Below are positions 5,520 to 61,405 of a stretch of 64,000 bases of DNA, in pieces. This DNA is from Spiractinospora alimapuensis. Its GTDB lineage: Bacteria > Actinomycetota > Actinomycetes > Streptosporangiales > Streptosporangiaceae. The translations under genes were made by a program, and so were the position numbers. Location: the NCBI RefSeq assembly GCF_018437505.1, contig NZ_CP072467.1, forward strand, positions 1,488,001 to 1,552,000, in the 5' to 3' direction. Each line of letters begins with the position of its first letter. Position 1 is the stretch's first letter. The notes under the pieces were generated by a model. It saw only the letters and a program-made list of their open reading frames with translations, did not search any database and was not told the origin of the DNA.

Positions 5520-5712
5520 TGAGTCCTCCAGAATCCGCCTCAGCTCGACAATTCTGGGTACCCGGACTCTTGGGGGCGGGTCACCCCCGTGAAATCCGTT
5601 CTGGCATTCTGTGAGAATACGTTCGACGCCTGGTGTCCCGTCGCTCGGGATATCGACGGCGGTGACAATGATGCCCACTCCCTATTCGATCGATCGTGAA
5701 CTCGGAGTAGCG

Positions 5713-6558
5713 ATGACGGACCCCACCGACTTCATGAAGCACACCGCCCCCTCCGAGGGAGAGTCAACGCCCTGGGCGGAGACCCGGATCGACACCTCCC
5801 GTCCGTCCATCGCCCGGGTCTACGACGCGTTGCTCGACGGCAAGGACAACTTCGCCGCCGACCGCGTCATCGCTGATCACTACCGCCAGGTCCCTGGGGC
5901 GCCGCGCGTCCCGTGGGACAACCGTGCGTGGATCGGTCGAGTGGTGCGGTGGCTGGTGGCCGAAGCGGGCATCCGCCAGATCATCGACATCGGCAGCGGC
6001 CTTCCCACCGCGAGCAACGTGCATGACGTCGCGCAGGCCATCGCCCCGGAGACCCGGGTGGCCTACGTCGACAACGACCCCATCGTCCTCGCCCACGGCC
6101 GCGCCATCCTCGCCAGCAACGACCGAACCACCGTCATCACCGCCGACGCCCAGGAGCCTGAGGGGATCTTCGGGAACCCCGAACTCCGTGCCCTGATCGA
6201 CCTCGACCAGCCCTACGCGGTCCTGCTCGCCGCGGTCCTCCACCATGTGCCCACCGGTGAGGACCAAAAGGTCGCGGCCGGCATCCGCGAACGCATCGCA
6301 CCCGGGAGCTACCTGGCCATCGCCAACTTCCACGACCCCGGTGACCCACGGGCGCAGGGGATCGAGACCGCGCTGGTCGAGAAGGGGCTCGGCTCCGGCT
6401 GGGTCCGCCCCTACCCCCAACACCGGATGTACTTCGGCGACCTCGACCTCGTCCACCCCGGACTGTGCCCGGCCAACGAATGGCACCCCGACGACGAGAC
6501 CCCCACCGACTCACCCGTCCACCACCTCTACCTCGGCGGAGTCGCGAAGCGACCCTAG
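5713..6558 (+). CDS. SAM-dependent methyltransferase, DUF574 (Methyltransf_19) type
   Basis: 281-residue S-adenosylmethionine-dependent methyltransferase of the DUF574 family, abundant in Streptomyces and relatives and mostly without known substrates. Motif I is IIDIGSGLP near residue 95, the acidic residue for the ribose is in VAYVDNDP near residue 118, and ITADAQEP follows. The family start (RPSIARVYDALLDGKDNF) is intact. The ATG at 5713 follows CGGAG; in-frame ATGs at 5668/5671 are possible but have no ribosome site. It stands alone between two hairpins. These proteins are usually cytosolic. Confidence 0.88.
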   Translation: MTDPTDFMKHTAPSEGESTPWAETRIDTSRPSIARVYDALLDGKDNFAADRVIADHYRQVPGAPRVPWDNRAWIGRVVRWLVAEAGIRQIIDIGSGLPTASNVHDVAQAIAPETRVAYVDNDPIVLAHGRAILASNDRTTVITADAQEPEGIFGNPELRALIDLDQPYAVLLAAVLHHVPTGEDQKVAAGIRERIAPGSYLAIANFHDPGDPRAQGIETALVEKGLGSGWVRPYPQHRMYFGDLDLVHPGLCPANEWHPDDETPTDSPVHHLYLGGVAKRP

Positions 6559-46898: not shown

Positions 46899-46957
46899 CA
46901 CTTCATCTGTACACACTATTTTGAACGAGAATTCGCACGATCGATGAGGTGTGGCCG

Positions 46958-48181
46958 ATGGCCGGATCACTCTTGCTCGTCAATGCCCTCGTCCTCGACG
47001 TCGACTCCGGTGCGTACCAGGAGTCCGACCTGCTCATAGTGGACGGTCGCGTCGCCGAACGCGGCCGGATACGTTCAACGTCAGAAGACACCCGAACCGT
47101 CGACCTTCGGGGCGCCCCCGTCCTCCCCGGACTGATCGACTGCCATGTGCACGTCAACGCGGTCAACGCTCATCTCGGCGTGATCGGAACCTGGTCCCCG
47201 TCGTATGTCACAGCCGGCGCGATCCAGCGCATGGGCGCGATGCTCGACCGGGGGTTCACCTCGGTCCGTGACACTGGGGGCGCGGATCATGGCCTCGCCC
47301 GCGCCCAAGAGGAGGGTCTGGTCCGCGGACCCCGGCTCTTCCACGGGGGGCGGGCCCTCAGCCAGACGGGTGGCCACGGCGACAAACTACCCCGGGGGGT
47401 CCGCCGATTCGAGGAGGACGCCTGCTGCGCCGGGACGTCGCGAGTGGTGGACGGGGTCGACGGAGTCCGCCGCGCGGCCAGGGAGGAACTGCGCCTGGGG
47501 GCGCACCACATCAAAGTCCACGTTTCCGGGGGCGTGTCCTCGCCGAACGATCGCGTCTCCTCGACGCAGTACTCCATGGATGAGATCAGGGCCGTCGTGG
47601 CCGAGGCGGATGCGGCCGAACGCTACGTGACGGTCCACGCCTACCCCGCCCGTGCCGTGAACCGCGCACTGCGCGCCGGGGTCCGGTGCGTCGAACACGG
47701 CAACCAGATCGACTCCGAAAGTGTCGACCTGTTCCTCGACCACGGCGCCTTCCTGGTCCCGACCCTGGTCACCTACCGATACCTCAAAGAGGAAGGGCCA
47801 CGGTACGGGCTTCCGGCGGACAACTGGGAGAAGGTCGGGGACCTGTTCGACCAGGGTCTGGCGGCCTTGGAACGGGCGGACCGCGCCGGGGTGCGCCTCG
47901 CCTACGGAACCGACCTTCTGTCCGGCATGAACGAGCACCAGACCGAGGAGTTTCGGATCCGCGGCGAAGTGCAACGCCCTCTGGGCGTCATCCGGTCGGC
48001 GACCACCGTGGCGGCCGACCTGTTGGGAATGTCCGGGCTGCTGGGAACACTCGCACCCGGCGCCCACGCCGACCTGGTGGTCCTCGACTCCGACCCACTC
48101 GACGACCTGAACGTCCTCGCCGACCACCATCGGCACCTTCGCATGGTCGTTCAGGAGGGCGAGGTCGTCGTGGAGCGGTAG
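46958..48181 (+). CDS. Metal-dependent amidohydrolase (imidazolonepropionase/prolidase-like)
   Basis: 407-residue amidohydrolase-superfamily enzyme. Metal ligands are in GLIDCHVHVN near residue 60, the carboxylated-Lys region in HHIKVHVSGG near 185, His in VTVHAYPARAV near 225 and VEHGN near 246, and Asp in LAYGTDLLSG near 312. Such proteins cleave cyclic amides, dipeptides or carbamates, e.g. Xaa-Pro dipeptides in relatives; the substrate cannot be decided. No signal peptide. ATG 46958 follows GAGGTG. The symporter gene starts 31 bases later and presumably imports the substrate. Confidence 0.84.
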   Translation: MAGSLLLVNALVLDVDSGAYQESDLLIVDGRVAERGRIRSTSEDTRTVDLRGAPVLPGLIDCHVHVNAVNAHLGVIGTWSPSYVTAGAIQRMGAMLDRGFTSVRDTGGADHGLARAQEEGLVRGPRLFHGGRALSQTGGHGDKLPRGVRRFEEDACCAGTSRVVDGVDGVRRAAREELRLGAHHIKVHVSGGVSSPNDRVSSTQYSMDEIRAVVAEADAAERYVTVHAYPARAVNRALRAGVRCVEHGNQIDSESVDLFLDHGAFLVPTLVTYRYLKEEGPRYGLPADNWEKVGDLFDQGLAALERADRAGVRLAYGTDLLSGMNEHQTEEFRIRGEVQRPLGVIRSATTVAADLLGMSGLLGTLAPGAHADLVVLDSDPLDDLNVLADHHRHLRMVVQEGEVVVER

Positions 48182-48212
48182 CCGCTGTCCCCCTCCCCTC
48201 GAAGGAGTCGTT

Positions 48213-49634
48213 ATGGACCGCCCCTTCATCCTGACCGCGGTGATCACATACCTGGCGGTCATGGTTCTTATCGGTTTCTGGTACGGGCGTCGGATCAAGA
48301 ACAAGGACGATTTCCTGGTGGCGGGCCGCAGCCTGCCGCAGTGGATCCTCACGGGTACGCTCCTGGCGACCTGGACCGGCGCGGGAACCATCATCGGTCG
48401 GGCGAACTTCACCTACACCTATGGCCCTCTCGCCAGTGTCTTCTACAGCCTTGGCCCGCCCTTGGGCATTCTGATCATGTATCTGTTCCTGGCCCGACGG
48501 ATCCGCGCCCTGGGCAAGTACACCGTCCCGGAGATCATCGAGCTGCGCTACGGCCGCACCGTGCGCATCGTCGCCGCGTGCGCGATCGTGCTCGCCTACA
48601 TGTCGATCATCTCCGAGCAGATCACGGCGCTCGGCTACATTCTCAATCTCGCGGTGGGCGTACCCCCAGCCGTTGGCGAGGTGGTGGGGCTGTGTCTGAT
48701 CCTGTTCACGGCGTTCGTCGGTGGAATCCTCGCGATGGCCTACATGGACGCCGTGAGCGCCATCGTCATCACGGGGGCCTTCTTCGGGGGCATCGTCTTC
48801 GTCCTCGTCGCCGTGAGCGGCTTCTCCGGGGCTCCCACTGACCTTCCCGCCGACCACCTCACCTGGACGGGCGGTCTGACCCCTTTCCAGCTTCTCGGGT
48901 TCGTCCTGCCAGGGCTGTTCCTTTTCCTCGGCGACCAGAACATGTACCAACGGTTCGGGGCCGCCCGCTCGCCCGACGTCGCCCGCCGTTCGGCGCTGGG
49001 GTTTCTGGCCGGGGACATCCTCTTCTACGGTGCGGTCATCGTCCTGGCCACGGGAGCGGTGCTGTTGTTGCCCGGGATCGCCCCTGACACCGCGATCCTG
49101 CGGCTGGCGACGGACGCGATGCCCCTGGCCCTGGGAGCCGCGGTGATGATGGCGGCCACGGCGTTCATCATCACCACGGGCAACTCCTTCGTTCTCTCGA
49201 CCTCGACCAACCTCGTGCAGGACATCTACGCGAGCCTCTCCCGACGCGAACTGACGTCGAAACAGACTTTGTGGGCGACTCGGCTGACCCTGATCGCCGT
49301 GGGCTTGGCGGCGTATGGCACGTCGAAGCTGTTCCCCGACGTCCTGGCCATCCAAGTGTTCGCCTACACCATGTACGGGGCCGTCATCACGCCCTGCCTC
49401 CTCGCCGTCTTCCTCACGCGCCGGGTCACCCCCGCGGGCGCGATCGCCTCGATGACGACCGGCGCCCTGGCCACCATCGGGTGGGAGTTCGCGCTGGACA
49501 AACCGTTCGAGTGGAACAGCATCCTGGTGTCCCTCCCCCTGTCCGTCACCGCATTGGTCGTGGTGAGTCTGTGCACCTCGCCACGGCCGGACGTGCGCGA
49601 TGAGCCCGCGAGTGCGACCGATCGGACCTCGTAG
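48213..49634 (+). CDS. Sodium:solute symporter (SSS family)
   Basis: 473-residue member of the SSS family with about 13 helices, of the type including PutP, PanF and proline/purine-like carriers. Typical segments are YGRRIKNKDDFLVAGRSLPQ near residue 24 (in part), GTIIGRANFTYTYG near residue 57, and SALGFLAGDILFYGAVIVL. Na+-site-like Ser/Thr residues occur in the STSTNLVQDIY part. ATG 48213 follows GAAGGAG. Together with the amidohydrolase ahead and the divergent Lrp-type regulator it forms an uptake-and-degradation module. A perfect terminator follows. Confidence 0.88.
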   Translation: MDRPFILTAVITYLAVMVLIGFWYGRRIKNKDDFLVAGRSLPQWILTGTLLATWTGAGTIIGRANFTYTYGPLASVFYSLGPPLGILIMYLFLARRIRALGKYTVPEIIELRYGRTVRIVAACAIVLAYMSIISEQITALGYILNLAVGVPPAVGEVVGLCLILFTAFVGGILAMAYMDAVSAIVITGAFFGGIVFVLVAVSGFSGAPTDLPADHLTWTGGLTPFQLLGFVLPGLFLFLGDQNMYQRFGAARSPDVARRSALGFLAGDILFYGAVIVLATGAVLLLPGIAPDTAILRLATDAMPLALGAAVMMAATAFIITTGNSFVLSTSTNLVQDIYASLSRRELTSKQTLWATRLTLIAVGLAAYGTSKLFPDVLAIQVFAYTMYGAVITPCLLAVFLTRRVTPAGAIASMTTGALATIGWEFALDKPFEWNSILVSLPLSVTALVVVSLCTSPRPDVRDEPASATDRTS

Positions 49635-49705: not shown

Positions 49706-50998
49706 TTATCCGCCGGGGAACAGGAGGTCGGGGAGGAAGGTGACGACGGGTTCGATGAGGGCGCTGGTGAGGAGGGCGATGAGGAGGGCGGTGAGGAAGG
49801 GGAGGACCTCGCGGACGAGGGCTCCGAAGGGGACTTGGCCGATTTTGCTGAGGACGAAGAGGAGGGCGCCCATTGGTGGGGTGAGCAGGCCGATCATGAG
49901 GTTGACGACGGTGAGGACCCCGAAGTGGATGGGGTCGACGCCGATGTCGATGGCCACGGGCATGAGGATCGGCAGGAAGATCAGGATGGCGGGGACCGCG
50001 TCGAGGACCATGCCGATGATCAGGAAGAAGAGCATGGCGAGCAGCAGGAACGCGGTCGGGCCGAGCTCCCACTCGCCGATCACGTCGGCGACCTGGTCAC
50101 CGACGCGTTGGACGGCGATGATGAAGGTGAATCCGCCGACCGCAGCGAACAGCATCATGATCGTCGAGGAGAACACGCTCGTGTCGCGGAACAACGCGGG
50201 CAGGACGCGTGGGGTGATGGTCCGGTAGGCGAACCCCAGGAGCAGGACGTAGAAGGCGGCGATGATCGCGACTTCGGTGATGGTCACGAAGCCGCCGATG
50301 ATGCCCACGAGGATGAACACGGGGGCGCCCAGGGCCGGGGCCGCGCGGAGCAGGAGCGTGCCGAACGGTGCCGGCTTCTCGGCGGTCTCGGCGGTGGCGT
50401 CGGGGAGTTTGCCGCGCCGGGCCTGCCAGAAGACCGTTCCGAACAGGGCGAGACAGAGCAGGATTCCCGGCCCGATGCCTCCGATGAACAGTTGCCCGAG
50501 GGACAGGGCGGTGACCAGCGACACGAACACCATGGGGACGCTGGGTGGCATCACCGGGCCGAGGACCGCCGCGCTGGCGTTGACGGCGGAGGAGAACTCG
50601 CGACGGTAGCCGCCCTTGCTCATCGCCGGCAGCATCGCCGAGGAGACCATGGACGCGGAGGCGGGCGCGGAACCGCTGACGCTGGACGCGAAGGCGTTCA
50701 CGCCGACGACCGCGTAGGCGAGCCCGCCCCGATAGCGTCCGAAGAAGTACATCATCAGATCGACGATGCGCTGTGTCAGTCCGGCCCGGGCCATCAGCTC
50801 GCCCATGAGGATGAAGAAGGGGATGGCGAGGAGCTGCGGGTTCGCCACTCCCGAGGCCATCTGGGTGGGCAGCACGGTTCCGCTGCCGATGCCGGCCACC
50901 GCGAGTGTCACGAGCGCGGAGCCGAGCATGGCGACGAAGATGGGGGCGCCGAGCAGCATCAGGGCGAAGAGGACGCCGAAGAGGATCAGGAGTTCCAC
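49706..50998 (-). CDS. dctM: TRAP transporter large permease (DctM family)
   Basis: 430-residue large membrane subunit of a tripartite ATP-independent periplasmic transporter, about 12 helices. Typical runs: ELLILFGVLFALMLLGAPIF at the start (in part), GGLAYAVVGVNAFASSVSGS near residue 92, PPSVPMVFVSLVTALSLGQLF, GLLTPPMGALLF. GTG start at 50998, two bases from the end of the creatininase-family gene, so it is translated as part of the operon. It works with the small subunit and binding protein two and three genes upstream, although the creatininase gene splits the trio. Confidence 0.92.
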   Translation of the reverse strand: MELLILFGVLFALMLLGAPIFVAMLGSALVTLAVAGIGSGTVLPTQMASGVANPQLLAIPFFILMGELMARAGLTQRIVDLMMYFFGRYRGGLAYAVVGVNAFASSVSGSAPASASMVSSAMLPAMSKGGYRREFSSAVNASAAVLGPVMPPSVPMVFVSLVTALSLGQLFIGGIGPGILLCLALFGTVFWQARRGKLPDATAETAEKPAPFGTLLLRAAPALGAPVFILVGIIGGFVTITEVAIIAAFYVLLLGFAYRTITPRVLPALFRDTSVFSSTIMMLFAAVGGFTFIIAVQRVGDQVADVIGEWELGPTAFLLLAMLFFLIIGMVLDAVPAILIFLPILMPVAIDIGVDPIHFGVLTVVNLMIGLLTPPMGALLFVLSKIGQVPFGALVREVLPFLTALLIALLTSALIEPVVTFLPDLLFPGG

Positions 50999-50999
50999 G

Positions 51000-51821
51000 T
51001 CACTCCTCCGCTCGGGGCAGGTATGTCGGGTCGTCGGCCGGTGCGGTGCGGGGCTCCCGCGCGGCGAGGTCGCGGACGAAGGCCGCGGTCCGGTCGACCA
51101 CCGTCCGCGCGATCTCCGCCCCGATCTCCGGGGTGGCGGCGCGCGCGTCGCCGAACACGCCGTTGCGGGTACGCGAGGCGAAGCCGCGCGCGGTCGTCAA
51201 CGCGTGGGGCCGGTAGTTGTCCTCGTAGGCCCCGTAGTCCTCGATGTGGTCACCGGGTTCCAGGGTCTCCGCCACCAGGGACTCGTCCAGCGCCATCGCC
51301 AGGCTCGTCTCGATCTCGCACCCGTGTCCCCACCGCTCGGAGATCCGGTGGTGGGCGATCACGTCGGCGGCCTGCGTCATCCAGAAGGAGGACGCCGCCT
51401 CGACACCGAGGTCGTAGGTCAGCTCGCCGACCAGGACACCGAGGACGTTCTCGTTGCCCCGGTGTCCGTTGACGAACACGACCCGATCGACGCCGTGCCG
51501 GCGCAGGCTGGTGATGACGTCCTTGTACACGGCCATGAAGGTGGACGCCGAGACGTGAAGGGTTCCGGGGAAGTCCAGGTGGTGCCCGGAGAGCCCGAAC
51601 GGGAGCGGAGGTACCACGACCGCGATCGGGGCCACCGCCTCCGCGATGCGCGACGCGAGTCGTTCGGCGATCCGCCAGTCGACCCCCGTCGCGAGGTTGG
51701 GACCGTGCTGCTCGGTCGCGCCGACGGGGAGGAGGGCCACCGTGGCGTCACGCAACGCCTGGCCGGCCCTTTCTGTGGTCATGTCGTCGAGTCGCCAGGA
51801 GTGCTGGTGCGACACCGTCAT
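51000..51821 (-). CDS. Creatininase family amidohydrolase
   Basis: 273-residue metal-dependent amidohydrolase of the creatininase fold (creatinine amidohydrolase, FAPy deformylase and mycofactocin-type relatives). Metal and catalytic residues are in VGATEQHGPNLATGVDWRIA (residues about 35-54, in part), GHHLDFPGT, FVNGHRGNENVL near residue 116, and WGHGCEIETSLA near 162. Start ATG 51821 follows AGGAGA and overlaps the small TRAP subunit stop by four bases. Its insertion inside the TRAP gene set suggests it opens an amide or lactam of the imported compound. Confidence 0.86.
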   Translation of the reverse strand: MTVSHQHSWRLDDMTTERAGQALRDATVALLPVGATEQHGPNLATGVDWRIAERLASRIAEAVAPIAVVVPPLPFGLSGHHLDFPGTLHVSASTFMAVYKDVITSLRRHGVDRVVFVNGHRGNENVLGVLVGELTYDLGVEAASSFWMTQAADVIAHHRISERWGHGCEIETSLAMALDESLVAETLEPGDHIEDYGAYEDNYRPHALTTARGFASRTRNGVFGDARAATPEIGAEIARTVVDRTAAFVRDLAAREPRTAPADDPTYLPRAEE

Positions 51822-52366
51822 GGGGTCTCCTCTCGTCTGGACGCGGCGTCGGTTCGGGTACCCGATGTCGCGGCCGGCTGGTCCGGCGCTGTCGGTGGGG
51901 CGGGTATCCGGCTGAGGCCGAGCAGCAGCAGGAGCGCACCGAGGGCGGGGATGGCGAGGAAGGTCCACCCGGTCGGCACCCCGAGCTGGACGTAGGGGAC
52001 GTCCATGCGGGTGGTGGCGACCTGGAGGCCCGCGACCAGGAGCACGAACCCGAGGACGAGCTCGATCCCGCGCACACCGAACGCGACGACGCGCTGTGCC
52101 AACGCGGGGAACCACTCGACGAGGAAGCCGGCCACGATGTGGTCGTTCCTGCCGTACGCCGCCGCCGCGCCCAGCATGATCATCCACGCGAACAGCAGCT
52201 CACTCAGGTCACTGACCCAGACCATGCCGCTGTTGAACTGGCGTCCGGTGATGTTGGCGAGGTTCAGCACGAAGATCGTGACGAACGCGGCGGCGGACAC
52301 CCACCCCGCGGCGGCGATGACCCGACCGCGCCAGCGGACCACACCGGAGTGGAGGACCCCCCACAT
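51818..52366 (-). CDS. dctQ: TRAP transporter small permease (DctQ family)
   Basis: 182-residue small membrane subunit with four helices (about 13-35, 48-68, 88-110, 128-150). Typical features: NITGRQFNSGMVWVSDLSEL near residue 37 and LLFAWMIMLGAAAAYGRNDH. The ATG at 52366 overlaps the binding-protein stop (TGATG), and its stop overlaps the creatininase start (ATGA). A Pro/Thr/Ala-rich tail follows helix 4. Confidence 0.88.
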   Translation of the reverse strand: MWGVLHSGVVRWRGRVIAAAGWVSAAAFVTIFVLNLANITGRQFNSGMVWVSDLSELLFAWMIMLGAAAAYGRNDHIVAGFLVEWFPALAQRVVAFGVRGIELVLGFVLLVAGLQVATTRMDVPYVQLGVPTGWTFLAIPALGALLLLLGLSRIPAPPTAPDQPAATSGTRTDAASRREETP

Positions 52367-53421
52367 CAGGCGTTCTCCTCGGCGAGCTCCCGCGTCTCCT
52401 CCAGGAGCCCCTCCGGCCACATGTCGCCGTCGAACTGGTCGAACACGCCGTCGAGTTCGTCGCGGAAGGCCTCGACGTCCACCTCCACGACCTCCAGGTC
52501 GCTGTCGAGCGTCGCCATGGCCTCGTCCATCTGCGTCCCGACCTCGTCAGTGGTGACCTCACCGGCCGTCTCGGCCTGCTCGGTGATGACGTCCTGGTGC
52601 TCCGAGCACAATGTGCTCCACACCTGGTCACTGAAGTACCAGGCCTGCACGTCACGGATGTAGTCCGTCGGCATGAAGTGCGACTGGACCTCCATCAGGC
52701 TCTGGTTCACCATGCTGATCGCGCCGTTCTCCTGGGCGTCGACCACCCCCTGGTTCAGCGAGAGATAGAGGTCGGAGAGCGGCACGACCTGTGGTTGCGC
52801 GCCGAGTACGCGCGCGAACTCCTGCGGCATCGGAGCGTCGGCGATCCGCAGTTGGAGGCCGTCCATCTCCTCCGGGGTGGGAACCGCCCGGTTGGCGCTG
52901 AGGGCACGGGGTTCGGCGTCGCCGGCCGTGGCCACCACGCGCACCCCGGTCTCGTCCGCGGCCTCGTCGATCAGTTCCCGGTAGCGGTCGCTCTCCAGCA
53001 CACCGCGCATCTGCTCGTAGCTGTCCCACAGGAAGGGCACGCTCAACACCGTGAACGCCTGGGCGCCGTCCAGCGTGGGGTAGAGGCTGATGCCGTTGTA
53101 GAAGATGTCGACTTCCTGGCCGGAGGCCATGGAGGCGAAGAGGTCGTCGGCGTCGCCGAGTTCACTGTTCGGGAACACCTGCACCGTGAGCTGGCCGTCG
53201 GTCGCCTCACTCACTCCGTCGGCGAACGCCTGGGCGCCCTGGGTGGTCGGGTCGTCGTTGGCGCGAATGGTGGCCAGGCGCAGCGTGCTCTCCTGACACT
53301 CCGAACCGTCAGCGTCCGAGGCGCTGTTCCCCGTGAGGAATCCGCAGCCGCTGAGGGTCAGGGCCGCGACGGCGACCAGGGCGATGTTCGATCGTGCGGG
53401 GAATGCGTTCTTCGTGTTCAT
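52366..53421 (-). CDS. dctP: TRAP substrate-binding lipoprotein (DctP family)
   Basis: 351-residue extracytoplasmic binding protein. Signal peptide with lipobox LSGC near residue 26. DctP fold: LRLATIRANDDPTTQGAQAF near residue 48, VQVFPNSELGDADDLFASMASG near 80 (in part), and the carboxylate-binding Arg region LQLRIADAPMPQEFARVLG near 190 (in part), plus NGAISMVNQSL. DctP proteins usually bind organic acids through that Arg. ATG 53421 follows GGAGGAAC. Part of the nine-gene operon, with 26 bases from the RidA gene. Confidence 0.9.
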   Translation of the reverse strand: MNTKNAFPARSNIALVAVAALTLSGCGFLTGNSASDADGSECQESTLRLATIRANDDPTTQGAQAFADGVSEATDGQLTVQVFPNSELGDADDLFASMASGQEVDIFYNGISLYPTLDGAQAFTVLSVPFLWDSYEQMRGVLESDRYRELIDEAADETGVRVVATAGDAEPRALSANRAVPTPEEMDGLQLRIADAPMPQEFARVLGAQPQVVPLSDLYLSLNQGVVDAQENGAISMVNQSLMEVQSHFMPTDYIRDVQAWYFSDQVWSTLCSEHQDVITEQAETAGEVTTDEVGTQMDEAMATLDSDLEVVEVDVEAFRDELDGVFDQFDGDMWPEGLLEETRELAEENA

Positions 53422-53447
53422 GACTGTTCCTCCGACTGCCTCGGCGG

Positions 53448-53930
53448 TTAGATCCGCCGAGTGGTGAAGATGAACTCGATCTCGACCGGGGCCCGACGCG
53501 GCAGGGACTGCACCCCGACCGCTGAGCGGGCATGGCGACCGGCGTCGCCGAAGACCTCCCCGAGGAGGTGGCTGGCGGCGTCCAGGACCGCGGGTTGTTC
53601 GTGGAAGTCAGGGGTGGAGGCGACGAAGCCGGTCACGCGCAGGACACGGAGCACGTTGTCGATCCCGCCCGCGGCCTCCGCCGCGCAGGCGATGCCCTGG
53701 AGCGTGCAGACCCGCGCGGCCCGCTGCGCGAGCGCGACGTCGACGTCGTCTCCGCAGCGGCCCGTGATCCGGACCTCGCCATCCTCCTTCGGGAGTTGAC
53801 CGGCGACGTAGATGACGTGGCCGTCGCGCACCGCAGGGCGGTAGTCGAACGAGGGCGCCGCGGGTTCCGGGAGCGTCAGCCCGGCCCGGGCGAGGCGATG
53901 GGACGGGAGGTCGGCGTAGGTGTCGCTCAC
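53448..53930 (-). CDS. RidA family protein (YjgF type)
   Basis: 160-residue protein of the RidA/YER057c/UK114 superfamily, which deaminates reactive enamines/imines or related intermediates. Family features: VYVAGQLP-like IYVAGQLPKEDGEVRITGR (residues about 44-62), VLRVLRVTGFVAS, and RSAVGVQSLPRRAPVEIEF with the conserved Arg of the active site. GTG 53930 follows GGAGGAA and overlaps the previous stop (GTGA). Present here probably because the pathway forms an enamine or imine; in catabolic operons some members are specialised hydrolases. Confidence 0.88.
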   Translation of the reverse strand: MSDTYADLPSHRLARAGLTLPEPAAPSFDYRPAVRDGHVIYVAGQLPKEDGEVRITGRCGDDVDVALAQRAARVCTLQGIACAAEAAGGIDNVLRVLRVTGFVASTPDFHEQPAVLDAASHLLGEVFGDAGRHARSAVGVQSLPRRAPVEIEFIFTTRRI

Positions 53931-54865
53931 TGGGAGTTCCTCCTGTTCGTCGCGTCGACGCCGTGCAGGTAGTCGGCCGCGCTGAGCGTGATGTCCGAGA
54001 GTTGGGGAGCCCATCCCGTGTCGTCACGGATCCGCGCGTCATCGGTGGCGGGCAGGTCGGGCGCGCCGTCCGGGGTGAAGGCCACCCGGACCCCGTCGGG
54101 ACGACCTGCGGCCGCCAGCAGCGCGTCGGCGATGTCCGCGAGGGAACCGCGGTGACCGACCACGTGATAGGCAGCCGCGACGGTCTCGGCCCGGAGCAGG
54201 GCGACGACGGCCTCGGCCGCGTCGCGGACGTGGATCCAGTCGGCGTCGCCCTCCCACACCGTGACCTCCGCTGGGTCGCCGGCACGCAGAGCGCGTCGCA
54301 GCCTGACGAGTGGTTCCTGGCTCCCGCCGTACCACCGCCCCGGCCCGTAGACCATCGGCAGTCTGAGTGCGACGACGTCGACGCCCAGGCGGGCCGCCAG
54401 AAGCGGGCCGAGGAACTCACACGCGGCCTTGGTCGCCCCGTAGGTCATGGTGGGCCGCAGGGCGGCCGACTCGTCGACGACGGCCGGGTACTGGTCGGCC
54501 GTTCCGTAGACGGTCGTGGACGACGACCACACCACGCGGCGGGCGCCGTTGCGGGCCGCGGCCTCGACCACACGGACGAACCCCTCGACGTTGGTGCGTA
54601 CCGCGGCGGCCGGGTCGAGGTCGGCTCCGGCGACGAGGCCACGGTCCCCGGACCCCGCCGCCGCCAGGTGTACGACCGCGTCAAGCGGCCCCGCCGCGGC
54701 GAAAGCGGCGTCCATCCCCTCGCTGTCGCCGACGTCCACCGCGGTGACGTCGGGGGCGGCGTGCAGGTCCGTGGCCAGGACGTCGATCCCGGCACCGCGG
54801 AGGGCGGTCCGTACGGCCGCTCCGAGGAATCCGGTCGCTCCGGTCACCGCCACGACGCGTGTCAT
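53927..54865 (-). CDS. NAD-dependent epimerase/dehydratase (extended SDR)
   Basis: 312-residue short-chain dehydrogenase of the extended type. Nucleotide motif TGATGFLGAA near residue 8, WSSSTTVYG near 107 with catalytic Ser/Thr, and YGATKAACE near 137 with the Tyr-x3-Lys pair. It may be a dehydrogenase or epimerase acting on the sugar- or hydroxy-acid intermediate; uronate dehydrogenase-like and UDP-sugar epimerase-like are options. ATG 54865 overlaps the enolase gene's stop (ATGA); the stop overlaps the RidA gene's start. Confidence 0.86.
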   Translation of the reverse strand: MTRVVAVTGATGFLGAAVRTALRGAGIDVLATDLHAAPDVTAVDVGDSEGMDAAFAAAGPLDAVVHLAAAGSGDRGLVAGADLDPAAAVRTNVEGFVRVVEAAARNGARRVVWSSSTTVYGTADQYPAVVDESAALRPTMTYGATKAACEFLGPLLAARLGVDVVALRLPMVYGPGRWYGGSQEPLVRLRRALRAGDPAEVTVWEGDADWIHVRDAAEAVVALLRAETVAAAYHVVGHRGSLADIADALLAAAGRPDGVRVAFTPDGAPDLPATDDARIRDDTGWAPQLSDITLSAADYLHGVDATNRRNSQ

Positions 54866-55992
54866 GTGTCCTCCCGAAGGAACTCGACGGCTCGCTCGTC
54901 CACCTCGACACCAAGCCCCGGCCCCGTCGGCACGTCGATGCGGCCGTCCGTTGGGCGGAAGGGGCTGGTCAGCAGGCGCTCGCGGAGCGCGTTGTCGCCC
55001 CGGTCCAACTCCAGCCACAGCGGGTCCGGGGCGTGGTCGGTGTGCGGAGTGTCGGGAACCGACGCGAGGAGCTGCACTGTGGCGGCGAGCGCCACGCCCC
55101 CGCCCCACACGTGGGGGGAAACACGCACACCCCACGTCCGCGCCAGCTCACAGATCGCCTTCGCCTCGAACAGGCCACCGACCTTGGTGACGTCCGGTTG
55201 GACGAGGTCCACGAGTCGTTCGGCGACCAGGCGCCGGAACGGGGCGCGGGTGTACAGGGCCTCACCGGTCGCCAGTGGAACACCCAGCGCGCGGAGCAGT
55301 GGGAGACCGTCGACGTCGTCGGGCGCGAGTGGCTCCTCTAGCCAGGTCATGTCCGTCTCGGCCATGGCCTCGGCCGAGGCCCGCGCCTGGTCGGCGGTGT
55401 AGTTGCCGTTCAGGTCCACCATCAGGGCGCCGTCGCCCAGGACGGCGCGGGCCGCCCGCGCGCGTTCACGGTCCTCGACGACACCGAACCCGCACTTGAT
55501 CTTCGCGCCGCGCATGCCGTCGACGGCGTCGGCGAGCTCCGCGGCGAAGAGGTCGAGGTCGCGGTCACGTCGGGCGTATCCGGCGGACGCGTAGGGAACG
55601 ACGTGGTCCCGCGCCTGACCGCCGAGGAGTGTCGCGACTCCGACGCCGAGCTGACGGCCGAGCACGTCCCACAGGGCGATCTCGATCCCGGACACCGCGG
55701 CGGCGTGCAGTCCGCCGCCCCGGTGGTAGTGCTGCTGCAGTTGAGCGGTGACGAAGGGGACGGGTGCGGTCACGGCGACGCCGGGAAGCGGGGCGGCGAT
55801 CTCCCTGACGAGGGGAACCATGGCGGTGGTCGGTCCGAAGGACTCCCCCCACCCGACGACGCCGTCGTCGGTCTCCACCCGCACGAGCGTGGTCTGTCGG
55901 GCCGGGACGAGTCCCCGCGCGGACCCGTAGGGCGCGTCGTGAAGGGGGTGGCTCAGGGGGATCGCCTCGACCGCACGGATCCGGGAGGTCAT
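54862..55992 (-). CDS. Enolase-superfamily enzyme (mandelate racemase/muconate lactonizing type)
   Basis: 376-residue enzyme that abstracts the proton next to a carboxylate. The acid-base set of the mandelate-racemase branch is visible: Lys-x-Lys in GAKIKCGFG near residue 165, metal ligands in LMVDLNGNY (Asp), TWLEEPL (Glu) and LATGEALY (Glu), and the His in RVSPHVWGGGVALA near residue 293. It should act as a dehydratase or racemase on a hydroxy-acid derivative. ATG 55992 overlaps the ThDP gene's end by four bases. Sugar-acid dehydratase is the best guess for the substrate class. Confidence 0.87.
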   Translation of the reverse strand: MTSRIRAVEAIPLSHPLHDAPYGSARGLVPARQTTLVRVETDDGVVGWGESFGPTTAMVPLVREIAAPLPGVAVTAPVPFVTAQLQQHYHRGGGLHAAAVSGIEIALWDVLGRQLGVGVATLLGGQARDHVVPYASAGYARRDRDLDLFAAELADAVDGMRGAKIKCGFGVVEDRERARAARAVLGDGALMVDLNGNYTADQARASAEAMAETDMTWLEEPLAPDDVDGLPLLRALGVPLATGEALYTRAPFRRLVAERLVDLVQPDVTKVGGLFEAKAICELARTWGVRVSPHVWGGGVALAATVQLLASVPDTPHTDHAPDPLWLELDRGDNALRERLLTSPFRPTDGRIDVPTGPGLGVEVDERAVEFLREDT

Positions 55993-57634
55993 CGCGTCCC
56001 CCCGTCCATCGCACTGAGCGAACGGCCGGGAGCGATGACGTCGGGATCGGTCCGGACGACCAGGACCGCGGGCCCCTCCGCTCCCATCAGCTCGGCGGCG
56101 GCCGCCGGGAGGTCGGCCTCGTCGTCCACGGTGGCGGCCTTCGCGCCCAATGACCGGGACAGGCTCTCGATGTCGACCGGCTCGATGTCACAGGCGCTGA
56201 CGGAGCGACCACTGGACGCCTGGTGCATGGCGATGGTTCCGTACAGGCCGTTCTGCAGGACGAGGATCTTCACGTCGGCCCCGACGCGGACGGCCGTCTC
56301 GATCTCCGTCGCCGTCATCAGGAACCCTCCGTCGCCGGCGACCCCGAGCACGGGGATGCCGGGCCGGGCGAGCGCGGCACCGATCGCGCCCGGTACGGCG
56401 TAGCCCATGGCGCCGGAGATCGGCGCGGCCTGGGTCCGTGGGTGGCGGAACATCCACTGTCGGTGCAGGAAGACCGAGAAGTTTCCGGCGTCGTTGGTGA
56501 CGATGGTCTCCTCCGGCGCGACGGCGCGCACCGCCTCGATCGCCCGACCGGGGTGAAGTCGGCCGTCGCCGTCAGGAGCGGCCGACGCCCCGGCGACCCG
56601 CAGGTATCTGTCGTGTCCGTCCCGCCACCAGGGATCATCGGTGGAGGGGTTCGCCACGTCGACCAGTTCCAGGAGCTGTCGGGCCAGGACGAGGGGATCG
56701 GCGGTGAGTGCCAGGTCGGCACGCTGGTGGACGCCGAGCACGGCGGGATCCGGGTGGACGTGCACGACCCGCGCCGAGGCGGAGGGGAGCGTGAATCCCT
56801 GTGCCGTCGTCCGTCGAGCCGCTCCCCCAACACCAGCACCAGGTCGGCCTCGCGGAGAGAGGTCAGGGTCTCGGGCGGCGTTCCAAGGGTGAGGTGCCCG
56901 AGGAAGTGGGGGTCGTCGTTGGGAAAGCTGTCCTGCCGGCGGAACGCGGAGTAGACGCCGGTTCCGTACCGGTCGGCGAGCTCCCGCACGACGGCCGGGT
57001 CACCGCCTTGACCGGTGATGACGACCGGTCGGCGCGCCGCGGCGAGCCACTGGGCCAACTTCCGCGCGTCCTCGGGGCGTGCGGCGGGGCGTGGCGGGGT
57101 GAGCAGCGGGGACTGCCGGGGGCACTGCCCTTCGAGGGTGTCCGCGGGGAAGGCGACGACGGCGGGACCGCCGCGTCCGGTGGTCGCGCGGACGAGCGCC
57201 CGCGCCACGGTCTCCGCGGCGCGGTCACTGCGGTGGAGCGTCGTGCCCCACACGGTGACCTCGCGGAGGAAGGCGGGGAGGTCGACCTCCTGGAATCCCT
57301 CGTTGCCGAGGTGCGGTGTGTCGACCTGTCCGACGAAGGCAAGCAGAGGGGTGCTGTCCTGCCGCGCCGTGTGCAGCCCGATGGCGAGGTTCGCGGCCCC
57401 CACGCCACGGGTGGCCATGACGACGGCCGGGGCGTCGGACAGCTTGCCGTCGGCCTCGGCCATGAACGCCGCGCCTGACTCGTGGCGGGTGGAGATCACG
57501 CGCAGGTCGGGGTGTCGGTGGAAGGACTCGAGCAGCGGGAGGAAGCTCTCCCCGGGGACGGTGTACACGCGGCGGACACCCGACTCGACGAGCAGGTCCG
57601 CGATGGCGTCGGCGACGGGAACTGTGGTGCTCAT
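55989..57634 (-). pseudogene. Thiamine-diphosphate-dependent enzyme, frameshifted
   Basis: ThDP enzyme of the acetolactate-synthase/2-ketoacid-decarboxylase group, about 548 residues if intact. Part 1 reads from ATG 57634 (ESGVRRVYTVPGESFLPLLE, with the catalytic Glu) to LVLVLGERLD at 56813; part 2, in another frame, continues from about 56813 (RTTAQGFTLPSASARVVHV) to the stop at 55989 and holds the ThDP motif GDGGFLMTATE to NGLYG. The length 1646 is one short of a codon multiple, and the join needs one extra base near 56814-56816. So a single-base deletion, or a sequencing error, breaks it. Without repair the product ends at 56318 without the cofactor motif. The gene's ATG overlaps the GntR stop. 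Confidence 0.85.
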
Positions 57635-58329
57635 CGGACCCCCGCGTCCTGGTCGGTCTCGAGGTCGCTGCGCAGTCGGGTCAGCACCCCGTCGATGTGG
57701 GACGTGACGTGCTCCGTCACCTCGGTGTCGTCGCCCCGCGTGATCGCGTCGAGGATCCGACGGTGTTCCTCGTTGGAACGACGGGCCTCCATCGGCGGTC
57801 GCCCCTGAAAGTGCCGGGCGATCTGGACGTGGGCGTGCAGGGAGTCGAAGGCGTGGACGAGGAACCGGTTTCCGGACGTTTCGACGATGCGCCGGTGGAA
57901 CTCCGCGTCCGCGGCGTTGAACGCCTTGACGTCGAGGTTCTCCGCCCGCGCCAGCTCGTCCATGGTGTCGACCACCCGTCGGAGCGCGGAGAGGGTGTCG
58001 CGGGTGCCGGTCGTCACGGCCTGCTTCGCCGCGGCGCACTCGAGCACCTCGCGTGCCCGCAACAGTTGGGCGAGGTCGTCATAGCTGAGGAGTTCGCTGA
58101 CTCTGAAGCCTCGGTAGGGCTCCACGGTGACGAGGCCTTCCGCGGAGAGGCGGTTGAGGGCCTCCCGCACCGGAGTCGGGCTCACGTCGAACTCCTTGCT
58201 GAGCCCGTGGATCTGCAGCGGGGCCTCTGGCTTGAGCTCAAGGTCCATGATCTGGGCGCGCAGCAGGCTCGCCACCCGGTCCGTCATGGCGTTGCGTACC
58301 GGCTGCGCCGTCCTTGCCGATCGAATCAT
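57631..58329 (-). CDS. GntR regulator of the FadR/FCD type, first gene of the operon
   Basis: 232-residue GntR-FCD regulator. Winged helix at about 12-75 (LQIHGLSKEFDVSPTPVREA), then the FCD helical ligand domain with metal-site residues in FNAADAEFHRRIVE near residue 140 and the His in EEHRRILDAI. It probably senses an organic acid of the pathway and represses the operon. ATG 58329 lies directly at the predicted transcript start; stop overlaps the ThDP gene (ATGA), so all genes from here to 49706 appear co-expressed. Confidence 0.88.
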   Translation of the reverse strand: MIRSARTAQPVRNAMTDRVASLLRAQIMDLELKPEAPLQIHGLSKEFDVSPTPVREALNRLSAEGLVTVEPYRGFRVSELLSYDDLAQLLRAREVLECAAAKQAVTTGTRDTLSALRRVVDTMDELARAENLDVKAFNAADAEFHRRIVETSGNRFLVHAFDSLHAHVQIARHFQGRPPMEARRSNEEHRRILDAITRGDDTEVTEHVTSHIDGVLTRLRSDLETDQDAGVR

Positions 58330-58575: not shown

Positions 58576-60144
58576 CTAGAACACGTCCACGCCGAGGGTC
58601 CAACTGAACAGCGCGTACATCGCGAACATGATCATGGCGAGCGCCGCGAAGTTGAACCACACGCCGGCTCGGAGCATCTCGGTGATCTTCACGTAGCCCG
58701 AGCCGAACGCGATGGCGTTCGGCGGGGTCGCCACGGGAAGCATGAACGACATGGAGGCGGCCAGCGTGGCCGGAATGACCAGGGCCAGGACGTCGACGTC
58801 CATGCCGACGGCGATACCGCCCATGATCGGGAGGAACGTCGCGGCGGTCGCGGTGTTGCTGGTCAGCTCGGTCAGACAGAGCACGAGCACCAGGACCGCC
58901 AGGATGAGCGCCCAGATGGGCACACCGTCGAGGATGGCGACCCGCCCGCCGATCCACTCGCTGAGCCCGGTGGCGGTGAACTGGCTGGAGATCGCGATCC
59001 CGCCGCCGAACAGCAGCAGGATCCCCCAGGGAAGCTTGAGCGCGGAGTCCCAGTCGAGGAGGCGTTCGGTCCGGCTCACCGGGATGATGAAGAGAAGGAC
59101 GGCGACCATCATCGCGACCAGGGCGTCGGAGACGCTCTCCAGCCAGGGGGCCGCCGCGGCGATGGTGGCGTTCTTCGCGAGCATCGGAGCGACGATCCAG
59201 GAGAAGGCCGCGAAACCGAAGACCGCGAGGACCAGCTTCTCGCCACGCTTCATCGGCCCCATGGCGGCGAGCTCGGACCGAATGAGTTCCTGGGCGCCCT
59301 CGAGCCGCTTGGTCGCGGGCGGGAAGATCACCTTGGCGAGCAGGAACCAGGCGAGGACGAGGAAGATGATGGCGAGCGGAACGCCCGCCATCATCCACTC
59401 ACCGAAGCCGATATGGATGTCGTGGGTCTCGGCGAGGTAGCCGGCCATCATGACGTTCGGTGGCGTGCCGATCAGGGTGGAGACGGAGCCGATGGACGCG
59501 GAATAGGCGATCGCCAGCATGAGGGCGGTCGCGAAGTTCGTGTCGGTCTTCCCGGCACGGAGCTGGGTGACGAGGCCGATCACCGACAGACCGACCGGCA
59601 GCATCATCACCGCGGTCGCCGTGTTGGACACCCACATGCCGATGACGAACGTCGCGGCCATGAAACCGGCGATGAGGCCGACGGTGTTGGACCCGACCCT
59701 CGAGACGATCACCAGCGCGATGCGACGGTGCAGGTCCCACTTCTGCATCGCGAGGGCGAGCATGAAACCGCCCATGAACAGGAAGGTGACGTCGGACCCG
59801 TAGGAGGGAGAGATGTCGGCGACGCCCACTCCGTCGATCAGCAGCGGGAAAAGCACCAACGGCAACAGTGATGTGGCCGGGATCGGGATGGGCTGGGTCG
59901 CCCACCAGATCGCGACCCACGCGGTGATTCCCGCGGCGATGCCACCGTTGACGGACATGACCTGCCCGGTCTCGCCCTCTTCGAGCGGGAGCGGCATCTC
60001 GGGCAGCACCAGGTAGAGCAGCAGACCGACGAGCGGGCCGGCGACGAAGCCGATCACGCGCGCCAGGGTGGTGTGCTCCGCGCCGGTCTCTTGGCTCCGC
60101 TCCGGTTCCTTGCCTGTCGTGGTGTCGGCGGTGCCCAACGCCAT
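58576..60144 (-). CDS. SLC13 (DASS) family sodium:dicarboxylate-type carrier
   Basis: 522-residue carrier of the divalent-anion:Na+ symporter family (VcINDY-like), about 12 helices. The two Ser-Asn-Thr sodium/carboxylate motifs are clear: WVSNTATAVMMLPVGLS near residue 150 and LTSNTATAATFLPIMGG near residue 435. Substrates are di- or tricarboxylates, or sulfate in some relatives. ATG 60144 follows AGGAGGAG. It stands behind its own promoter, downstream of nothing else on the strand, and is separated from the GntR-TRAP operon by an intrinsic terminator; a functional link to that operon's organic acids is possible. Confidence 0.9.
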   Translation of the reverse strand: MALGTADTTTGKEPERSQETGAEHTTLARVIGFVAGPLVGLLLYLVLPEMPLPLEEGETGQVMSVNGGIAAGITAWVAIWWATQPIPIPATSLLPLVLFPLLIDGVGVADISPSYGSDVTFLFMGGFMLALAMQKWDLHRRIALVIVSRVGSNTVGLIAGFMAATFVIGMWVSNTATAVMMLPVGLSVIGLVTQLRAGKTDTNFATALMLAIAYSASIGSVSTLIGTPPNVMMAGYLAETHDIHIGFGEWMMAGVPLAIIFLVLAWFLLAKVIFPPATKRLEGAQELIRSELAAMGPMKRGEKLVLAVFGFAAFSWIVAPMLAKNATIAAAAPWLESVSDALVAMMVAVLLFIIPVSRTERLLDWDSALKLPWGILLLFGGGIAISSQFTATGLSEWIGGRVAILDGVPIWALILAVLVLVLCLTELTSNTATAATFLPIMGGIAVGMDVDVLALVIPATLAASMSFMLPVATPPNAIAFGSGYVKITEMLRAGVWFNFAALAMIMFAMYALFSWTLGVDVF

Positions 60145-60463: not shown

Positions 60464-61405
60464 ATGCAGTGGACACCGGGGCGGAGGACCGCCCTGCTCA
60501 CCCTGGCGGGGGCGGCGACCGCCGCGATCACGGGCTGCGCGCGGGCCCCGGAGGGAGCGGTCGATCGGCTCGTCGTGGCGACGGGACCCCCCGGCGCGGT
60601 CTACCGGGAGATCGGTAGCGAACTCGCGGCGCTACTCGACGAGCACCTCGACGAGATCGAGGTGGTCACCATGGAGACCCGTGCCTCACACGACAACCTC
60701 TTCCTCCTCGCGGACGGTGAGGCTCACCTCGGACTGGCCAACCTCGACTCCATCCTGTCGGCGGGAGTCGCCGACGGCGACGACGTGTTCGCCGTCGGAC
60801 GCCTCTACGACAGCTTCGTCCACCTCGTCGTGCCCGGGGACTCCCCCGTCCGGTCGCTGACGGACCTCGACGGCCGACGGGTTTCGGTGGGGGCGGTGAA
60901 CTCGGGGACCGAGTTCACCGCCGCGCAGCTCATCGGGGAGATCGGTTTGGACGTCGAGGAGCGTCGGTTGGACCAGGCGGCCTCGGCCGCGGCCCTCACC
61001 TCAGGGGACATCGACGCGATGTTCTCCCTCACGGGTCTGCCGACGCCCGCCGTGGCCACCGCGGCGGAGGAAGGGCGGATCCGGCTGATCGACCTCTCCG
61101 CGGCGGCCGACGCCTTGGCCGACGTCTCCCCGGAGGCCTACTTTCCGGCGAGCATCCCCGCGACCACCTACGACGGTGTGCCCGCCTGTCCCACCGTGTC
61201 GGTACCCAATCTGCTGCTGTGCGGCGCCGCCCTGCCCGACTCGCTCGTGCGAGTCGTGACCGGCACCCTGTACGCGGGTGTGGACCGCCTGTCCGCCCAG
61301 CGGCCCGAGGCGGCGCAGATCAACGTCCGAACCGGGATCTCCACCGGGATCGTGCCGCTGCACCCGGGGGCGTCGCAGTGGTACCGGGACCAGAAGCCCG
61401 CGTGA
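60464..61405 (+). CDS. TAXI-family substrate-binding lipoprotein, orphan
   Basis: 313-residue binding protein of the TAXI (TRAP-associated extracytoplasmic immunogenic) family. Twin-arginine-like signal RRTALLTLAGAATAAITGC with lipobox Cys near residue 25. Core features: VVATGPPGAVYREIGSELAALL (in part) near residue 37, SHDNLFLLADGEAHLGLANLDS near 75 (in part), LDGRRVSVGAVNSGTEFTA near 134. No fused TRAP permease (DctQM type) is adjacent, so it may serve a distant transporter or act as the sensor part for the two-component system 9 bases downstream (convergent). ATG 60464 has no ribosome site. Confidence 0.85.
   Translation: MQWTPGRRTALLTLAGAATAAITGCARAPEGAVDRLVVATGPPGAVYREIGSELAALLDEHLDEIEVVTMETRASHDNLFLLADGEAHLGLANLDSILSAGVADGDDVFAVGRLYDSFVHLVVPGDSPVRSLTDLDGRRVSVGAVNSGTEFTAAQLIGEIGLDVEERRLDQAASAAALTSGDIDAMFSLTGLPTPAVATAAEEGRIRLIDLSAAADALADVSPEAYFPASIPATTYDGVPACPTVSVPNLLLCGAALPDSLVRVVTGTLYAGVDRLSAQRPEAAQINVRTGISTGIVPLHPGASQWYRDQKPA

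Follow-up and report, generated by a model that had tools for sequence, protein, structure and literature searches.

A nine-gene TRAP transporter operon of Spiractinospora alimapuensis with a possible role in the breakdown of a uronate-like acid

A 64,000-nucleotide stretch of the Spiractinospora alimapuensis genome (contig NZ_CP072467.1, positions 1,488,001 to 1,552,000; hereafter the window) carries on its minus strand a nine-gene operon (58329 to 49706) that unites a tripartite ATP-independent periplasmic (TRAP) transporter, five enzyme genes and a GntR regulator. We tentatively propose that this operon serves the catabolism of an imported uronate-like acid, probably one bearing nitrogen (an amino-, acylamino- or amide-uronate, or an aldonate or aldarate of that kind). 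Judged by its sequence, the operon is akin to the oxidative uronate pathways and differs from them by a thiamine diphosphate (ThDP)-dependent enzyme, a Rid protein, a creatininase-family hydrolase and the lack of KdgD.

Pfam matches agree for every gene with the families that an earlier note on this DNA had assigned from the open reading frames (Table 1), and DctP, DctQ and DctM all score above the Pfam cut-off, making the TRAP transporter complete. The same note had described the genes as overlapping or abutting, mostly by four bases. Five of the eight junctions are indeed 4-nucleotide overlaps, namely GntR–ThDP, ThDP–enolase, enolase–SDR (short-chain dehydrogenase/reductase), SDR–Rid and DctQ–creatininase, and the others measure +26 (Rid–DctP), −1 (DctP–DctQ) and +1 nucleotides (creatininase–DctM). 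From these spacings, it is a fair reading that most of the operon is translationally coupled. In all five full operons compared, GntR, ThDP, enolase and SDR are joined by the same three 4-nucleotide overlaps, with start codons picked by hand in four of the five.

Table 1. Genes of the operon, in the order of transcription (window coordinates)
Product	Position	Strand	Basis
GntR/FCD-family regulator	57631..58329	-	Pfam GntR 62.1 bits, FCD 97.3 bits; 68% identity to L018
ThDP-dependent enzyme gene, acetolactate-synthase-like, split	55989..57634	-	best model PRK08199; TPP_enzyme_N/_M and TPP_enzyme_C
Enolase-superfamily enzyme, mandelate racemase type	54862..55992	-	Pfam MR_MLE_N and _C; solved relatives; tree
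Extended SDR, NAD-dependent epimerase/dehydratase family	53927..54865	-	Pfam Epimerase 124.7 bits
Rid protein nearest to Rid1 (PA0814), GTG start	53448..53930	-	Pfam YjgF_endoribonc 69.7 bits; also Ribonuc_L-PSP
TRAP solute-binding protein DctP	52366..53421	-	Pfam DctP 172.9 bits
TRAP small permease DctQ	51818..52366	-	Pfam DctQ 77.1 bits
Creatininase-family metal hydrolase	51000..51821	-	Pfam Creatininase 213 bits (PF02633)
TRAP large permease DctM	49706..50998	-	Pfam DctM 329.1 bits

Genome contigs were scanned with two enolase sequences, and among the best 80 of 517 relatives the gene set appeared at two loci. Tamaricihabitans halophyticus (L018) has all nine genes in the same order, with 59–77% identity per gene, while the alphaproteobacterium Marinimicrococcus flavescens (L019) has the enolase, SDR, Rid and creatininase genes together with an ABC transporter rather than a TRAP one. 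Altogether, five loci hold the full operon in the same order: the window, L018, L015 (genome G002), L111 (G354) and L112 (G267), of which the four outside the window are actinobacterial. Because the order repeats in these four, the nine-gene set reflects more than chance. G267 has the enzymes twice. Besides its TRAP operon it carries a second set (L113, 4214–10619) comprising SDR, ThDP, enolase, Rid and creatininase; this set is preceded by genes for an ABC transporter of the oligopeptide/nickel type and for an amidohydrolase-like protein, and is followed by a 4-oxalocrotonate tautomerase gene that scores 88.4 bits (cut-off 86). Two partial loci retain GntR, ThDP and creatininase (L124) or enolase, Rid and a truncated creatininase (L125, genome G583). 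The open frame of the latter creatininase (5648–6346) has no homology past about residue 189 and, by eye, ends in a tail resembling a transporter of the major facilitator superfamily, which would be a deletion fusion or an assembly artefact.

Over these nine cassette loci, creatininase occurs in nine, enolase and Rid in eight each, and SDR and ThDP in seven each, one ThDP gene being broken. All five enzymes accompany an ABC transporter in L113 and four of the five do so in L019, which we count in favour of the proposed catabolic route; since the transporter varies while most enzymes stay, this pattern marks the enzymes as probable members of one pathway. At E 1e-80 the enolase was found in 2 of 150 genomes of the order. 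The creatininase was found in 6 of 396 genomes of the phylum at E 1e-55, and at E 1e-70 in 2 of 200 genomes of the family and 3 of 66 in the class of G267 (order, phylum and family counts include the window genome itself). Three of the six phylum genomes, our own, G267 and G354, carry the cassette. Stretches fetched around the match in the other three, G520, G448 and G158 (L117), contained no other operon gene, and the creatininase relatives of G520 and G448 yielded no functional clue.

In the route that we propose, DctPQM would import the uronate-like acid and the extended SDR would oxidise it with NAD to a lactone, in the manner of uronate dehydrogenase. The creatininase-family metal hydrolase may open this lactone, or an amide. 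The enolase-superfamily enzyme would take the proton beside the carboxylate and expel the beta group to give a 2-keto-3-deoxy acid. If the alpha carbon bears nitrogen, this reaction would pass through an enamine, and the Rid protein would hydrolyse that enamine or imine. The ThDP enzyme might decarboxylate the 2-keto acid to a semialdehyde in place of KdgD. Finally, an aldehyde dehydrogenase resembling α-ketoglutarate semialdehyde dehydrogenase (KGSADH), encoded beside three of the five full operons and elsewhere in this genome, would oxidise the semialdehyde, perhaps towards 2-oxoglutarate, with GntR as the presumed regulator of the set.

The best-scoring models of the enolase are sugar-acid dehydratases; the galactonate dehydratase model (NF010624) gave 182.2 bits, under its cut-off of 311, and the cis-3-hydroxyproline dehydratase model 94.9 bits, also under cut-off. 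The best solved relatives are 5olc and 4ggb, the latter of which we take to be the galactarolactone cycloisomerase of Agrobacterium. Residues K164, K166, D193, E219/E220, E244, D267 and H294 do not vary among the four rows compared and align with 4ggb, and presumably they have the roles usual in the chemistry of the family. In a tree of 36 rows, which included 22 hand-chosen loci out of 78 other genome-contig loci and 4 of 10 viewed haloarchaeal loci, eight cassette enolases form one clade (support 97/90). The nearest group, on an unstarred branch with 89/80 support, consists of four plasmid-borne enolases of haloarchaea, 42–47% identical to those of the cassette. Two enolases from clusters of the Gci type, in Thioclava and Pseudooceanicola, lie across a 98/95 branch, the window enolase being 39% identical to the Thioclava enzyme.

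The ten haloarchaeal loci viewed were drawn from 30 listed of 37 plasmid records with a match, and the plasmid gene tables are incomplete. An NAD(P)-dependent oxidoreductase with 28–31% identity to a Thioclava protein that we took for uronate dehydrogenase (Udh) is encoded in seven of them, a dihydrodipicolinate synthase (DHDPS)-family protein with 25–30% identity to KdgD proteins likewise in seven, and an aldehyde dehydrogenase in five. Several are annotated with pectate lyase, pectinesterase, GH28, GH78, GH88, GH115, glucuronate isomerase or mannonate dehydratase. Gene content of this sort belongs to oxidative uronate metabolism as outlined in PMC6353982. They resemble the cassette in their enolase, oxidoreductase and aldehyde dehydrogenase, and differ in their KdgD-like gene and in the two proteins without counterpart: no Rid or creatininase match was found in any of the ten stretches at E 1e-4, so the haloarchaeal uronate context does not cover these two. 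In L101, a single ThDP enzyme of 27% identity is encoded about 6.6 kb away from the enolase.

The Agrobacterium-type oxidative uronate pathway consists of Udh, Gli, Gci, KdgD and KGSADH, according to PMC6353982, and is apparently present in a Thioclava stretch (L118). Both there and here, an SDR, a mandelate-racemase-type enzyme and a TRAP transporter share one cluster. Dehydrogenases 46–48% identical to the Thioclava KGSADH-like enzyme adjoin the full operons of L018 (directly upstream and divergent), L112 (downstream of DctM) and L111/L126 (about 2 kb upstream of GntR). No such gene lies in the 64-kb window or the 19-kb L015 stretch, and two KGSADH-like genes, 47–50% identical, are found elsewhere in the window genome. 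Unlike the Agrobacterium-type pathway, the cassette operons have the ThDP enzyme, the Rid protein and the creatininase-family hydrolase, none of which is matched in the Thioclava stretch, and they have no KdgD: a tblastn search with the Thioclava KdgD at E 1e-6 found none in the window, L015, L018, L111, L112 or L113. Filing the operon under the Agrobacterium-type pathway was ruled out on this ground. The earlier note knew of no described pathway with this combination of enzymes, and family-name searches of open-licence PMC papers turned up none that we recognised; the enolase and the dehydrogenase beside three of the five full operons nevertheless point to the known oxidative uronate type.

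In G267 and G354 the KdgD relatives are only 30–35% identical (best E about 1e-26) and probably of DapA type. Because both genomes possess the dehydrogenase but only these distant KdgD relatives, the ThDP enzyme is a natural candidate for decarboxylation there. At about 5.267–5.271 Mb the window genome has a further cluster (L129, 7218–11141), in which a KdgD-type and a KGSADH-like gene stand with what looks by eye like a gene of the enolase superfamily. Its KdgD-like gene scores 402.3 bits with PRK03620, above cut-off, and 366.9 bits with the KdgD model TIGR03249, just under 373.95; this is probably a separate glucarate cluster.

The preference for a nitrogen-bearing substrate stems mainly from the Rid protein, whose best solved relatives are 3d01 and PA0814 (9bk9), followed by ACIAD3089. 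The latter two are classed as Rid1 in PMC5619798, where Rid1 proteins deaminate 2-aminoacrylate and imino acids in vitro, not iminoarginine, and where pathways yielding Rid substrates are called hard to identify. Residue R135, aligned with the HAR motif of PA0814, is invariant in all seven cassette rows; it is the equivalent of RidA Arg105, an arginine essential for imine hydrolysis according to PMC4433059. This arginine is common to RidA and Rid1–3, and the assignment to Rid1 is by nearest match only. From an acid whose alpha carbon bears nitrogen, an enolase-type dehydration would give an enamine. Since the Rid1-like protein keeps its arginine and the enolase could make such an enamine, we prefer a nitrogen-bearing substrate, and the nitrogen-containing acid of the earlier suggestion gains some weight as a prediction. 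We hold out distinctly less hope for the more exact version, an amino-uronic acid pathway in which the enolase would make a 2-enamine on purpose, Rid1-type hydrolysis would be a regular step instead of damage control, and the ThDP decarboxylase would replace KdgD ahead of the KGSADH-like dehydrogenase. A RidA-annotated gene of Pseudooceanicola (L119, 4569–4961) stands about 3 kb from the Gci-type enolase; it had no match to the cassette Rid at E 1e-4.

The hydrolase shares PF02633 membership and the E-x-H, D and N-G-H motifs, invariant in four rows, with creatininase, MftE and IolN. Unlike these, it misses all three equivalog cut-offs, with 96.5 bits against 235 for creatininase (TIGR04448), 94.5 against 172 for MftE (TIGR03964) and 71.5 against 245 for IolN (NF041098), and it has Gly at the position of the Glu in creatininase NGHYE that presumably binds metal. 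These missed cut-offs ruled out a creatinine, mycofactocin or inositol role, and they do not support the amide opening previously read into the operon. The enzyme may be a lactonase or an amidase. The MftE of this genome is a different gene (L128, 5265–5939), with 308 bits against the cut-off of 172.

Several observations weigh against the proposed route. The SDR, in which Tyr142 and Lys146 of the active site are invariant in seven rows, shares only 24% identity with the Udh-like protein of Thioclava (over 177 residues, E 1e-8), and its best NCBIfam model is GalE, with 76.5 bits against a cut-off of 262.3. The sugar-acid-type operon contains neither a pyridoxal phosphate enzyme nor an amine oxidase, the usual makers of imines. 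In L019, no ThDP match was found within the stretch, and the enolase forms a long branch of unsure placement. The genomes of L019 and L015 have no KGSADH-like gene at E 1e-70, and no KdgD relative closer than 34%. The window genome and Tamaricihabitans carry KdgD-like genes elsewhere (relatives of 39–43% and the L129 gene), which removes the need for the ThDP enzyme to stand in for KdgD in these two genomes. Decarboxylation by the ThDP enzyme would also leave a dihydroxy semialdehyde, one further dehydration away from 2-oxoglutarate semialdehyde. The haloarchaeal kinship is partial, given the missing Rid and creatininase matches and aldehyde dehydrogenases of a different kind, only 28–35% identical to those beside the cassette. 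The constancy of the creatininase is partly built in by the search route, as five of the nine loci (L111, L112, L113, L124 and L125) came from creatininase searches. Lastly, we know of no ligand or activity for any cassette member.

Much of the same evidence could be read as plain hexuronate oxidation without nitrogen, which we consider only slightly less likely than the proposed route. The SDR would yield an aldarolactone, the hydrolase would be a lactonase and the enolase would act like galactarolactone cycloisomerase; the ThDP decarboxylase together with Rid, and in L113 also with the tautomerase, would replace KdgD, and Rid would clear stray imines or ease tautomerisation. The kinship of the enolase and its haloarchaeal uronate context, the KGSADH-like neighbours and the tautomerase beside the L113 cassette all suit this explanation. 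It has difficulty with a Rid protein that is nearly constant across the cassette loci and keeps its arginine in every aligned row, which is hard to explain without an imine, with the lack, at E 1e-4, of any match to Rid or hydrolase in the uronate stretches of the haloarchaea and of Thioclava, and with the absence of KdgD from the operons.

A final step by a KGSADH-like enzyme is also known from the breakdown of hydroxyproline. The substrate might be a hydroxy acid with a nitrogen ring, lactam or hydroxyproline-like; the hydrolase would open a cyclic amide, the enolase would epimerise or dehydrate, and the KGSADH-like enzyme would finish. The creatininase fold, the Rid protein, the oligopeptide/nickel-type ABC permease of L113 and a transporter of similar appearance, by eye, in L019 agree with such a substrate. 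We regard it as improbable, given that the enolase scores higher with galactonate dehydratase than with cis-3-hydroxyproline dehydratase, both under cut-off, and that a ring amino acid is a poor fit for an extended SDR of sugar-nucleotide type. Most improbable is a carboxylated cyclitol or cyclic diketone, with the ThDP enzyme as an IolD-like C–C hydrolase and an IolN-like creatininase-family enzyme: the IolN score of the hydrolase and 78.6 bits with the IolD model for the C-terminal ThDP part hint at it, and both fall far below their cut-offs (715 for IolD) and below the scores of other family models.

In sequence DctP is closest to 4pc9/4pcd, which we assume to hold sugar-acid ligands, and then to SiaP proteins; among the matches listed in fold searches, its solved relatives are 17–27% identical and have mixed ligands. 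An AlphaFold model built from eight sequences (the window protein and seven of nine listed alignment rows) has a pLDDT of 79.8 and the fold of a TRAP binding protein, with binders of sialic acid, sugar acids and isethionate lying a few Z units apart. A ligand assignment from structure was dropped, as the resemblance of the model is to TRAP binding proteins as a whole. DctP aligns with SiaP at the arginine and asparagine positions and departs from it at other ligand contacts; sialic acid was ruled out as substrate by this partial alignment and by the lack of a sialic-acid enzyme in the operon. With identities of at most 27% among the matches listed, DctP stands near no solved protein of known ligand that comes with these enzymes, and the earlier reading of the genes as a coupled catabolic operon with TRAP uptake, to which sequence assigns no substrate, is upheld.

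The ThDP gene, previously taken as an intact enzyme, is split in the window. Its N-terminal part (TPP_enzyme_N and _M) aligns over 56801–57634, in an open frame that continues to 56318, and its C-terminal part (TPP_enzyme_C, 55989–56765) lies in a different frame. Alignment with the intact Tamaricihabitans gene (L018, 8355–10001) indicates a net loss of one base near 56811. The amino-acid identity of the two parts to L018 is 0.71 and 0.69, the codon-position pattern of both resembles that of the neighbouring genes in this comparison, and the orthologues are uninterrupted in all six loci examined (L018, L015, L111, L112, L113 and L124). Because both parts keep normal coding constraint and the orthologues are open, the lesion would be either a recent event or a sequencing error. 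If the frameshift is real, this genome has probably lost the ThDP step. Whether the whole operon is decaying, its function already gone, is a question separate from that of the substrate. The one-base deletion makes decay a real possibility, to which we give somewhat less than even credence: the other eight genes are open and the ThDP parts retain their constraint, so any loss would be recent or the base a sequencing error. PRK08199 (NF006052) is the best of 55 models for the intact L018 orthologue, at 511.2 bits under a cut-off of 539; the window parts taken separately score 279.6 and 199.9 bits. The nearest solved ThDP enzymes are BbmA and CsmA, and the literature searched on these two and on the two host genera gave no functional lead.

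If the proposed route is correct, it would represent an enzyme set for sugar-acid breakdown for which no description was found in the papers searched, give a Rid1-type protein a concrete pathway role, and provide a KdgD-independent path to the semialdehyde. In the named strain Tamaricihabitans halophyticus the genes of this compact operon are open, which makes the proposal directly testable.

Convergent with the operon, the plus strand at 46949–49634 encodes an amidohydrolase (257.1 bits with the Xaa-Pro dipeptidase model, cut-off 500) and, after it, a protein resembling a sodium:solute symporter (111.5 bits with PutP, its best model, against a cut-off of 515.5). Upstream of GntR, a DASS-family anion symporter on the minus strand (58576–60144) and a TAXI-family TRAP solute-binding protein on the plus strand (60464–61405) both score over their cut-offs; by eye, no TRAP permease gene adjoins the latter in the window. 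To the left of the window (L016, 2–1916), a gene resembling proline racemase or hydroxyproline epimerase stands, by eye, beside a DHDPS-family gene, a pair that perhaps serves hydroxyproline breakdown. To the right (L017, 198–3030) lies an aldehyde dehydrogenase 27–33% identical to the KGSADH-like ones, which, by eye, adjoins a phosphonoacetate-hydrolase-like gene.

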